Shown: one piece after another, positions 4,744 through 55,740 of the stretch | Position numbering within the stretch: the stretch's first letter is position 1 | Layout: the number at the start of each line of letters is the position of its first letter | Origin: Synechococcus sp. J7-Johnson | Lineage (GTDB): Bacteria; Cyanobacteriota; Cyanobacteriia; PCC-6307; Cyanobiaceae | Direction: 5' to 3' | NCBI RefSeq assembly: GCF_024345795.1 | Contig: NZ_JAGQBU010000012.1 | Location: 1 to 64,000, forward strand | Length of the DNA stretch: 64,000 nt | The notes under the pieces: generated by a model | Told to the model about the DNA's origin: nothing | Databases searched by the model: none | Seen by the model: only the letters and a program-made list of their open reading frames with translations | Made by a program: the position numbers and the translations under genes

Positions 4744-4777
4744 CTCGCGCGGAGCTGCTTGGACTGCTCGGATTGTC

Positions 4778-5938
4778 CTATGGAGCGGTGGTGAACTGGC
4801 TGGCTTCCAGCGGCGACCGCACCCAGATGCCTGGTTTCACTGCATAGCTCCCATCCACCGGCGAGATCAGTTCCGCCCGCTCCGGTTGGAGCTGTTGCAC
4901 CAGCTCATGGAAGCCGCGTGAGAGCTTCGGGGCTTTTGAGAGTTTGATTTCGTACACCCGCCGGCGCTGGCCCCGCTCCAGCACCAGATCCAGTTCGGCC
5001 CCATTGCTGGTGCGCAGGAAATGGGGGCGCCAGCGTGGATGGGCAGCAATCAGCTGCTCGATCACGAAGCCCTCCCAGCTCTCGCCGGCCTGGGGGTGGG
5101 CCAGGAGGTCGTCGTAGGTCTCGATGCCGAGCAGGTTGTGCAGCAGGCCGCTGTCGCGCAAATACAGCTTGGGCGAGCGCACCAGCCGCTTGCTTAGGTT
5201 CGCTTCCAGCGGCGGCAGGCGCCGCAGCATGAAGGTTTGCTCCAGCACTGCCAGCAGCTGCTGCAGTCGGGCGCTGCTTAGGTCCAGCAGCCCCGACAGT
5301 CGGCTGGCATTGAGAGTCTGGCCCTGGCTGTGGGCAAGAAGGCGCCACAGCCGCTCCATGAGTGGCAGAGGCAGCCCCAGCTCGAGGGAGGCGATATCCC
5401 GTCCCAGGAAGGTGTGGATGAAGTCCTCACGCCAGTCGATGCTGTCTTCTCCCGTGGCGGCCAGCAGGCTCTCCGGGAAGCCACCGCGCAGCCACAGCTG
5501 CTGCCAGCTGCTGGTGCCGCTCACCTCCTGCAGCAGAAATGGAGTGAGTTCCACCTGGGCGATGCGTCCTGCCAGGCTTTCGTGGCTCTGGCGCAGCAGA
5601 GGCCCGGAGGCCGAGCCCAGCAGCAGAAAGCGACCGGGCCGGCGATCCCGGTCGATCTCGGAGCGCAGCAGGCTGAAGAACTCCGGCAGTAGCTGGATTT
5701 CATCCAGACACACCAGCTGGCTGCGGTGGGCCTCGAGGAACAGCTCCGGCTCTGCCAGCTTGGCCCGATCGCCGCGGTCCTGGAGATCCAGCAGCACGCC
5801 ATCGCCGCGCTCCGCCAGAAGCTTTCTGGCCAGGGTGGACTTGCCGCACTGGCGTGGCCCCAGCAGCAGGGCCGCTGGCGCCCGAGCCAGGGCCTTCGCC
5901 AGGCCCGCGGCTGCATTCCTAAATAGATAACCATGCAT
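4778..5938 (-). CDS. AAA ATPase with DUF4143 C-terminal domain
   Basis: A 386-residue protein of the AAA_14/DUF4143 group. The Walker A motif GPRQCGKST is at residues 27-35, the Walker B-like LVCLDEIQ has Asp79 and Glu80, and LLLGSAS is a sensor-1-like segment. The C-terminal half has [12 protein letters not shown] and ends in a PD-(D/E)XK-like portion ([26 protein letters not shown]) typical of DUF4143, so a nuclease-like fold is possible but its activity is unproven. These genes are patchily distributed and often mobile. The start codon at 5936-5938 lies in one arm of a perfect 18-bp inverted repeat. The family's function is largely unknown. Confidence 0.88.
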
Positions 5939-5970
5939 TTCTGCATTTTAAGTGCAGAAATGCATGGTTA
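5928..5970. repeat. Perfect 18-bp inverted repeat with 7-nt spacer over the ATPase start
   Basis: The left arm TAACCATGCATTTCTGCA (5928-5945) and the right arm (5953-5970) are exact reverse complements, separated by TTTTAAG. The arms include the ATG of the minus-strand ATPase, and because of the symmetry both strands read ATG-CAT-GGT. The block is AT-rich against its GC-rich surroundings. It could be an operator for a dimeric regulator, an mRNA hairpin hiding the start codon, or the remnant of an insertion. The repeat itself is seen directly; its function is inference. Confidence 0.9.
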
Positions 5971-6056
5971 ATGCTTTGGTGGGGAAGTCCGGCTTTGCCT
6001 GCGTGGTCTCTGGCCTCCATACGATCAAGGCTGCACCCAGCCGCCACCCTCTGTGA
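5964..6056 (+). CDS. Possible 30-residue leader ORF upstream of the radical SAM/DUF2344 gene
   Basis: A short open frame begins with an ATG inside the right arm of the inverted repeat (MVNALVGKSG...) and ends with a TGA that overlaps the GTG start of the next gene as GTGA. It could allow coupled translation. No ribosome-binding site is evident and I know of no homologue, so chance is quite possible. Confidence 0.2.
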   Translation: MVNALVGKSGFACVVSGLHTIKAAPSRHPL

Positions 6057-53974: not shown

Positions 53975-54979
53975 ATGGCTGATCTGCCTTTCACCCTCGA
54001 TCAGCTGCGCATCTTGCGCGCCATCTCCAGCGAGGGCAGCTTCAAGAAGGCTGCCGACAGCCTGTACGTCACCCAGCCAGCGGTCAGTCTCCAGATCCAG
54101 AACCTGGAGAAGCAGCTTGATGTCTCCCTGTTCGACCGGGGTGGCCGCAAGGCGCAGCTCACCGAAGCCGGCCATCTCCTGCTCAGCTATTGCGACCGGA
54201 TCCTGAGCCAGTGCCAGGAGGCCTGCCGCGCCCTCGACGACCTACACAATCTGCGCGGTGGCTCGTTGATCGTGGGGGCGAGCCAGACCACGGGCACCTA
54301 TCTGATGCCCCGCATGATCGGGCTGTTCCGCCAGAAATATCCCGATGTTTCGGTGCAGCTCCAGGTGCATAGCACCCGCCGCACCAGCTGGAGCGTGGCC
54401 AACGGTCAGATCGATCTGGCGATCATCGGCGGTGAGTTGCCCAGCGAACTGGTGGATCTGCTGCAGGTGGTGCCTTACACCAACGATGAACTGGTGCTGG
54501 TGCTGCCGGTGAAACACCCCTTGGCACGTCTGCCCGAGCTCAACAAGGACGATCTATACCGCCTCGGCTTCGTCTGCCTCGATGCCCAGTCGACCACCCG
54601 CAAGATGGTGGATCAGCTGTTGGCGCGCTCTGGTTTGGAGGTGCAGCGCCTCAAGATCGAAATGGAGCTCAACTCCTTCGAGGCGATCAAGAACGCCGTC
54701 CAGTCTGGCCTCGGTGCAGCTTTCCTGCCGGTGGTCTCGATCGAGCGCGAACTGGCCACGGGCAGCTTGCACCGCCTGAGCGTCTCCGATCTGCACGTGC
54801 GTCGTCAGCTCAAGTTGATCACCCATCCCGCCCGCTATTGCTCCAGGGCCTCAGAGGCCTTCCGCCGCGAAGTTCTGCCGTTGTTCGCCAGTCCCGACAG
54901 TCCTCTGCGCCAGCCCGCGGCACGGCCTGCGGCCACTCCGCTTCAGGAGGCTGTGGTCCAGGCGGCCACAGCCTCCTGA
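53975..54979 (+). CDS. rbcR: LysR-type regulator RbcR (Ycf30)
   Basis: A 334-residue LysR-family regulator. The winged HTH is [61 protein letters not shown]; the effector domain spans ~95-300. RbcR controls Rubisco and carbon-fixation genes in red-lineage plastids and cyanobacteria. CmpR and CcmR/NdhR are close relatives, but the conserved opening [14 protein letters not shown] and the long C-terminal tail favour RbcR. Its last codons form half of a 21-bp inverted repeat. Confidence 0.9.
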
Positions 54980-54986
54980 AGCGGAG
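54936..54986. terminator. 21-bp perfect inverted repeat at the rbcR 3' end
   Basis: Arms 54936-54956 and 54966-54986 are exact reverse complements around a 9-nt loop, with the core CTTCAGGAGGCTGTGG. The repeat covers the last 14 codons and the stop of rbcR and ends 7 bp before the stop of the convergent DUF3172 gene. No T-tract follows on either strand, so it would act as a U-less bidirectional terminator or an RNA-stability element. The structure is seen; its role is inference. Confidence 0.75.
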
Positions 54987-54993
54987 GCCCCGA

Positions 54994-55736
54994 TCAGAAC
55001 TGGCCGGCTTCGGGTGTGAGCCCGGTGGCGTCGTCGGCGGCGCCGGCAATGCCCCTGGTCTGGAACTTGTTGCCGCTGATATCAGTCTGGTAGACGCATC
55101 GCACGACGGGTTTGTCGCGGATCGAGCCGATGTAGGCGAAGGTGTTCATGCGCTGCTTGCACTGGCGCATCTGCTCAGATGTGACGGCGCCCTCTTTCTG
55201 GAGCACGCTCCAGTTCTCCCGCCGGATCACGCAGCCCGGCTGCAGGGTGGGCTGGGTCACGAAGCTGCTGCTGGGGTTCATCGTGGTGTACAGCTCCACG
55301 TCCATCACGAAGGCGCTGGCCCCCCACTGCTTGCAGAACTCGGGATCTGGAACTGCCAGATCCAGCTGTTGGCTGCTGGCGATGTTGCCCTGGTTGCCGG
55401 GAGTGTTGCTCGAGAGGGCCGTGCCGATGCCGATGCCCAGTACCAACACGCCAGCAAGAACGGCGATGGTGCCCACATTCAGCTGAATGGGACTGCCAGC
55501 ACCTCCGCCCCCGCCGGATCCACCACCGCCTCCCGGGCCACCGTTGCCCCCGCCCCCGCCTTGCTCGGCTGTCCGCCGTCCCCGGGGCGAGCGGTCGTAG
55601 GTCTCGTAGGGATCACGTCCCTCTGCTGCCGGGAGGGAGCGGGTTTCGCTGCCTCGCCCATAGCCGCCGCGGGCGGCATCCCCACGGCTGTTGTCGTTCC
55701 AGCCGGCGCGTCCACCTCGGTCGTAACGGGAGCGGG

Positions 55737-55740
<4 letters not shown>
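54994..55740 (-). CDS. DUF3172 domain-containing membrane protein
   Basis: A 248-residue protein: an Arg/Gly-rich N-terminus with [12 protein letters not shown], a glycine-rich linker (residues ~62-82), one membrane helix ([18 protein letters not shown]) and a C-terminal cysteine-bearing domain ([51 protein letters not shown]) matching DUF3172. The TTG start overlaps the ndhM stop (TTGA), so it is co-translated with ndhM. Function unknown; linkage to ndhM suggests a thylakoid role. Confidence 0.82.

Follow-up and report, generated by a model that had tools for sequence, protein, structure and literature searches.

The inverted repeat at positions 5928-5970 of the stretch of DNA analyzed here (64,000 nucleotides from Synechococcus sp. 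J7-Johnson, hereafter the window) looks like a switch that is read by the product of the gene it precedes, a DUF4143 ATPase, because the promoters of related genes carry palindromes that covary with the residues that would contact them. Judging from comparisons of sequence, we put the probability that the ATPase recognises its own palindrome at roughly 0.9, and we consider it probable that the ATPase represses itself through this palindrome. The preliminary description of the window had proposed that the repeat is the operator of a dimeric regulator, which might be the ATPase, and the conservation of the palindrome, the occurrence of clean sites at DUF4143 genes only and the covariation all speak for this proposal. 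Conservation, position, uniqueness and covariation of the palindrome, and its insertion with the gene as a unit, emerged from computation. The window has the following features.

4778 to 5938, minus strand: DUF4143 ATPase gene, 386 aa, with AAA_14 at residues 21-139, a winged helix at about residues 191-241 and DUF4143 at residues 180-334; matched by PADLOC PDC-S01.
5928 to 5970, no strand: perfect inverted repeat, arms 5928-5945 and 5953-5970, with counterparts in relatives at an equal distance from Walker A.
5936 to 5938, minus strand: start codon of the ATPase in the proximal arm, at d11-d13 counted from the dyad, reading CAT on the plus strand.
5945 to 5950, minus strand: candidate -10 box TAAAAT, lying on the dyad and 6 nt upstream of the ATG, proposed from the sequence and the register of relatives.
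5837 to 5860, minus strand: Walker A motif GPRQCGKS, residues 27-34.

The two exact 18-bp arms, the 7-nt spacer and the position of the ATPase start codon within one arm were all confirmed as originally described. Around the single central base 5949, 20 of 21 pairs match, and allowing this one mismatch extends the arms to 21 bp. In ten 64-kb first-order Markov sequences, with a spacer of up to 20, the longest perfect arm was 10-14, and the palindrome is therefore not a product of chance, as had been claimed from its length. Its GC content is 0.35 compared to 0.66 for the window, i.e., an AT-rich island in GC-rich surroundings, again as described. A start context had also been noted on the other strand; the mirrored ATGCATGG is indeed present on the plus strand, but no gene starts there, since a stop codon follows after three codons. 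Exact copies of the core 12-mer TGCATTTCTGCA in the 2.99-Mb genome of this organism, which contains one DUF4143 gene, are limited to the two arms, and with up to 1 mismatch it occurs at 9 places. The window contains a longer perfect inverted repeat at 54936-54986, with 21-bp GC-rich arms and a 9-nt loop, located between the convergent genes 53975-54979 (plus strand, LysR-like by eye) and 54994-55740 (minus strand), and this is probably an ordinary two-way terminator.

The palindrome of the window is one case of a general rule for DUF4143 genes. Many of 80 relatives from bacterial genomes have a palindrome at the equivalent place, with the same core found in betaproteobacteria, Bacteroidota, Planctomycetota and others, and palindromes of other sequence, varying by clade, are found at a roughly equal position in more distant DUF4143 genes. 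Our final set comprised 395 non-redundant DUF4143 genes, reduced from 427 by removing genes with less than 190 nt upstream and near-duplicates more than 80% identical upstream; 15 open reading frames without a Walker A match were dropped before counting. A dyad of at least 14 of 22 pairs is present upstream of 247 of the 395 genes compared to 18 of 395 gene-body control windows, and a dyad of at least 16 of 22 pairs is present at 134 genes and in 1 control (395 each), leaving 148 of the 395 genes with no dyad of at least 14 pairs. When the genes are grouped by HMM class, dyads of at least 14 pairs are present in 116 of 179 (at least 450 bits), 91 of 130, 31 of 58 and 9 of 28 (below 100 bits). 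Scored by arm, 125 of 316 genes reach at least 11, compared to 3 of 948 gene-body, 19 of 852 farther-upstream and 3 of 316 shuffled windows. Examination of the 116 clade-1 genes with at least 14 pairs demonstrated that the dyad lies exactly 88 nt before the Walker A codon in 55 and 89 nt before it in 15. Absence of the repeat at orthologous ATPase genes, which the preliminary description had named as evidence against an operator, was not what we observed; the palindrome is conserved upstream of DUF4143 genes.

The dyad thresholds, and the residue pairs considered below, were picked while viewing these same data, and only a set of plasmid genes was fetched afterwards; of these 15 plasmid DUF4143 genes outside the main set, 12 have a dyad of at least 14 pairs. 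A search of viral contigs with a single-protein query found no relative, and a query with an alignment found 10 loci, of which 8 genes were read, with few clear dyads. In one locus (L043, G256:C294), two divergent DUF4143 genes lie back to back, with a palindrome upstream of each. Single genomes can hold between 14 and 23 DUF4143 matches (G240, G077, G016, G256 and G279), and such genomes may permit tests of orthogonality within one cell.

Clean sites of the window's type were specific to DUF4143 genes in the genomes scanned. When the half-site pattern of the type present in the window was scanned in 34 genomes, 76 matches were returned, 75 of them listed, and 25 of these 75 lie near a DUF4143 gene. 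Among the matches listed, the combination of 31-bp spacing with inner symmetry of at least 4/8 occurs 22 times at DUF4143 genes and 0 times elsewhere; one 32-bp site with inner symmetry 6/9 is located away from DUF4143 genes in these 34 genomes. The preliminary description had also allowed that the arm might prove to be a generic repeat found at many unrelated loci, and in these 34 genomes clean sites occur at DUF4143 genes only. The same data bear on whether the palindrome is instead the operator of a host regulator encoded elsewhere, since any dimeric regulator would suffice to explain a palindrome over a promoter. Paralogues within one genome, however, have a half-site identity of 0.51 (26 pairs), and so differ nearly as much as random distant pairs (0.43), whereas the nearest homologues in other genomes have an identity of 0.67 (24). 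This, the absence of clean sites elsewhere in the genomes, and the covariation of palindrome bases with the ATPase make a host regulator very improbable.

Analysis of the position of the palindrome relative to promoter elements showed two registers. Of the 74 genes whose dyad is at -88, 73 have the ATG at d19; the left arm carries a TTGCAA-like box and, 17 bp farther on, the right arm carries a TAAAAT-like box that ends 6 nt from the ATG. In this register the arms depart from symmetry in the direction of the -10 consensus, with T at the right d7 in 31 of 74 genes compared to the mirror letter at the left d7 in 10. With the dyad at -89 (21 genes, including the window), the ATG lies at d11 in 18 of 21, partly because ATGCA is itself conserved; a -10-like box spans the dyad in the window and some others, and a TTGAC-type -35 box precedes the left arm in L289, L290, L291, L292, L293 and L259. 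The window and the other cyanobacterial members are without a good -35 box. As far as the sequences allow a judgment, both registers suggest leaderless transcripts, and the ATPase gene has a symmetric site over its own promoter, as an autoregulatory repressor would need. For the Bacteroidota -7 motif (TAnnTTTG), the commonest offset from the dyad occurs in only 5 of 83 genes, too few to conclude.

This arrangement also bears on the suggestion, made in the preliminary description, that the repeat forms a hairpin in the mRNA and so masks the start codon. The start codon does lie within one arm, and a perfect stem would be possible if both arms were transcribed, but with a -10 box about 6 nt upstream of the ATG, as in both registers, the left arm would stay untranscribed. 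In addition, mismatched pairs are nearly balanced, with 53 G.T compared to 46 A.C in a first set, 152 compared to 117 in a larger set (p = 0.04), and 134 compared to 109 (p = 0.12) in the larger set without d7, the position at which the -10 box disturbs the symmetry. Selection for an RNA stem should favor G.T far more, and we therefore read the palindrome as a DNA rather than an RNA element. A search of Rfam gave no match at the gathering score and far-below-score matches mostly to microRNA models; neither an Rfam family nor wobble-tolerant covariation was found, the G.T excess being small. As the bases of the palindrome also covary with protein residues, a masking hairpin is extremely improbable.

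In the protein itself, Pfam identifies AAA_14 (PF13173; 5.8e-24, 85 bits, cut-off 27) and DUF4143 (PF13635; 9.1e-39, 133 bits, cut-off 28.1), and seven PADLOC PDC-S01 models match the window protein, the best being PDLC04790 (3e-87); we take PDC-S01 to be COG1373. The parts of the protein that matter for recognition are encoded as follows.

5216 to 5368, minus strand: codons of the winged helix-turn-helix, residues about 191-241, from the AlphaFold2 model (mean pLDDT 92.4).
5270 to 5278, minus strand: residues 221-223 (SSA), where the recognition helix begins; these covary with half-site positions d5-d7.
5003 to 5008, minus strand: residues 311-312 (SN), part of the RTxxG turn; these covary with half-site positions d13-d16.
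4943 to 4996, minus strand: PD-(D/E)XK-like active site E315, D317, E330 and K332, from conservation and fold matches of the domain alone.

In the AlphaFold2 model, the recognition helix of the winged helix comprises residues 222-234, with residue 222 at its start, and a turn at 311-314 in the DUF4143 domain separates the strand that ends at 310 from the one carrying E315 and D317. The winged helix of the model is the predicted DNA-binding domain that an autoregulatory repressor should possess. The DUF4143 domain was modelled separately (pLDDT 78.6) because, with the whole model, the VIA-align rows were mostly confined to residues 1-285. With this model, Foldseek returned only one match below 1e-3 (Can2, 9.2e-4), and VIA gave Z scores of up to 8.5, with most of the named rows being PD-(D/E)XK nucleases; matches of the domain alone include Can2/Card1, McrC, Hjc resolvases, FokI and restriction enzymes. 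These fold matches are consistent with a PD-(D/E)XK domain, short of proof.

Covariation between protein residues and half-site bases was analyzed in 218 genes with a dyad of at least 14 of 22 pairs and a score of at least 150 bits, using letters only where both arms agree. In 105 sister pairs (5440 tests), the strongest associations were A223-d6 (4.8e-7), S222-d7 (8.8e-6) and N312-d16 (1.5e-5). With pair identity as a covariate, A223-d6 ranks first (2.4e-5) and N312-d16 fourth (6.3e-4), and S222-d7 falls outside the top 30. A chi-square ranking of columns was dominated by mostly conserved ones, with columns 307, 177 and 155 at the top for d6, d13 and d17, and was given up in favor of mutual information combined with a filter for variability. 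The mutual-information scan, covering about 260 variable columns and 99 clusters at 60% identity, places residue 223 top for d5 and d6, 222 for d7, 212 for d9, 311 for d13 and d14, and 312 for d16; d12-d14 and d17 carry phylogenetic background. Permutation gave p = 5e-5, the floor, for the main residue-base pairs, compared to 0.08-0.85 for six mismatched pairs. Clustering at 50% (47 groups) left 222-d7 (1e-4), 223-d6 (0.008) and 312-d16 (0.011) significant, and 311-d13 (p = 0.06) and 221-d5 (p = 0.31) not significant.

Counted by cluster, individual residues go with individual bases. For example, at d7, H222 occurs with G in 14 of 17, D222 with C in 7 of 7 and Y222 with A in 3 of 3; at d6, K223 occurs with G in 9 of 10, P223 with A in 21 of 24, T223 with A in 7 of 9 and N223 with T in 4 of 6. 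The same is seen at d16, where N312 occurs with A (15 of 15), A312 with T (12 of 13), D312 with C (9 of 15) and H312 with G (4 of 7), and at d13, where H311 occurs with A (15 of 18) and N311 with C (9 of 9). The window fits this pattern, having N312 with A at d16.

Bases could also be predicted across clades, with each prediction trained only on rows below a set limit of identity (50% or 40%). Below 50% identity, residue 222 predicts d7 in 39 of 56 cases (commonest base 14, nearest homologue 21), residue 312 predicts d16 in 56 of 84 (commonest base 36, nearest homologue 41) and residue 311 predicts d13 in 48 of 84 (commonest base 31, nearest homologue 46). Below 40%, the corresponding values are 33 of 49 for residue 222 (commonest base 18, nearest homologue 15), 49 of 81 for residue 312 (commonest base 36, nearest homologue 21) and 41 of 75 for residue 311, compared to 18 by nearest homologue. 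Residue 221 predicts d5 in 51 of 71, barely above the commonest base (49 of 71). Among the plasmid genes, K223 is accompanied by G at d6 in 8 of 8, and d16 is T on both arms in 13 of 14, although this latter part tests little because all of its predictions concern A312. Taking covariation and out-of-clade prediction together, the protein residues appear to determine the site.

We infer from this that the palindrome is the cognate operator of the adjoining DUF4143 ATPase, with two protomers occupying the two half-sites. The inner bases d5-d7 would be read by residues 221-223, where the recognition helix of the winged helix begins, and the outer bases d13-d16 by residues 311-312, in the turn before the PD-(D/E)XK-like active site. 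Occupancy of the operator would switch off transcription of the ATPase's own gene, because the site covers the -35 and -10 elements and the start codon of a probably leaderless gene. Release could follow the binding or hydrolysis of ATP, or come about when another DNA captures the protein.

For a simple repressor, a conserved nuclease-like active site is an unusual feature. The palindrome might instead be a substrate of the nuclease domain of the ATPase, which would act as an ATP-gated, site-specific enzyme that cuts or nicks copies of the palindrome in its own promoter, in incoming related elements or in an extruded cruciform, with repression being secondary. E315, D317, E330 and K332 are 98-100% conserved (1.00, 0.99, 0.98 and 1.00, respectively, in 179 clade-1 genes), the outer bases would be read by the turn directly before the active-site strand, and the domain alone matches PD-(D/E)XK nucleases, with a top Z of 8.5 and below. 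Against this, the site is located in the gene's own promoter and is intact in most lineages, and the empty locus of relatives offers no target palindrome. On balance, we think a nuclease substrate somewhat unlikely. A broader idea, which we offer as speculation and regard with more doubt, is that DUF4143/PDC-S01 proteins are site-specific nucleases, ATP-gated and self-recognising, that use a two-part DNA code, the promoter palindrome serving as both off-switch and identity tag, so that the protein would be silent when bound at home and act on DNA that titrates or competes for it. If this were true, tens of thousands of genes would be orthogonal sensors of self and non-self DNA, with a specificity predictable from four or five residues.

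Comparison of the locus with relatives showed that the gene and its palindrome travel together as a one-gene unit, with the following boundaries.

4784 to 6016, no strand: interval absent from relatives without the gene, containing palindrome and gene, between two divergent promoter-like host motifs.
4770 to 4783 (dapL side) and 6017 to 6030 (radical-SAM side), divergent: host promoter-like motifs flanking the insert, from locus comparison.

The neighbouring genes presumably encode LL-diaminopimelate aminotransferase and a radical-SAM protein. A DUF4143 gene is present between these same neighbours in 3 of 30 family loci (L457, L458 and L470). At empty sites, the promoter-like motifs of both host genes lie close together, and no palindrome was found in any of the 12 empty sites displayed; the GATTGTCCTA motif of the window is exact in four of them (L459, L464, L465 and L484) and varied in others. 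Filled sites keep both host motifs, with palindrome and gene between them. Within the phylum the distribution is patchy, with DUF4143 in 50 of 244 genomes.

This patchiness, the 3 of 30 family loci filled at the junction and the insertion of gene plus palindrome between two host promoters would also suit a palindrome that a transposing or homing element uses as its end or its target. Such an element is nevertheless improbable, as there is a single palindrome, at one end only, no target-site duplication was recognised, and the empty sites are without the palindrome. Other observations concern the surroundings of these genes. At about 2600-2660 of L041 (G246:C2:64653), a truncated tandem DUF4143 copy retains its own palindrome, 305 bp upstream of the palindrome of the intact gene. 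At about 1870-2990 of L479, from another member of the family, about 1.1 kb of other DNA with no DUF4143 match lies between the same two host genes, and this junction may accept inserts repeatedly. On plasmids of Octadecabacter and Dinoroseobacter (L487 and L490), a DUF4143 gene is located directly downstream of repC; in L496 such a gene is near repC, and in L500 near another replication gene.

By profile match, the window protein belongs to PDC-S01, a single-gene phage-defence candidate in PADLOC. In one study, PDC-S01 is presented as an ATPase with a fused PD-(D/E)XK domain that ranks fourth in frequency among prokaryotic defence systems (29,494 in Bacteria, 9,986 in Archaea), most candidates of this kind still awaiting validation (PMC12988326), and in another it is reported as the single locus found most often in rumen genomes (PMC13356809). 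In T. thermophilus, an AAA_14/DUF4143 homologue is listed as changed 6.6-fold between a plasmid-bearing and a plasmid-free strain (PMC4406477), in which we see no more than a hint that foreign DNA derepresses the gene. Searches of the literature, which covered few subscription papers, gave no description of an operator, a DNA target or a recognition pattern for DUF4143/PDC-S01, an absence that carries little weight. An apparent DNA target, with a recognition pattern and a self-regulatory logic, makes this function-unknown family testable, and the family would supply many orthogonal repressor-operator pairs.

The nearest solved structures are the archaeal Walker-type ATPases 2qen and 2fna, which match the ATPase and winged-helix part (Z 18.1 and 16.8; about 250 residues); the alignment ends at about residue 271, with the DUF4143 domain outside it, and we know of no operator for either. 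The window protein appears to have in common with Type II restriction enzymes and other PD-(D/E)XK nucleases a predicted fold, catalytic residues and the reading of a symmetric site, but unlike Type II restriction enzymes it has an AAA ATPase and a winged helix fused to this domain, its site lies in its own promoter, and its nuclease role is putative. The closest regulatory parallels are HigA and MazE, which, as proposed here for the ATPase, are reported to bind a palindrome over their own promoter, and RptR, which is reported to regulate defence genes. Unlike in these three systems, the reader here would be a one-gene ATPase, and its nuclease-like domain seems to read half of the site.
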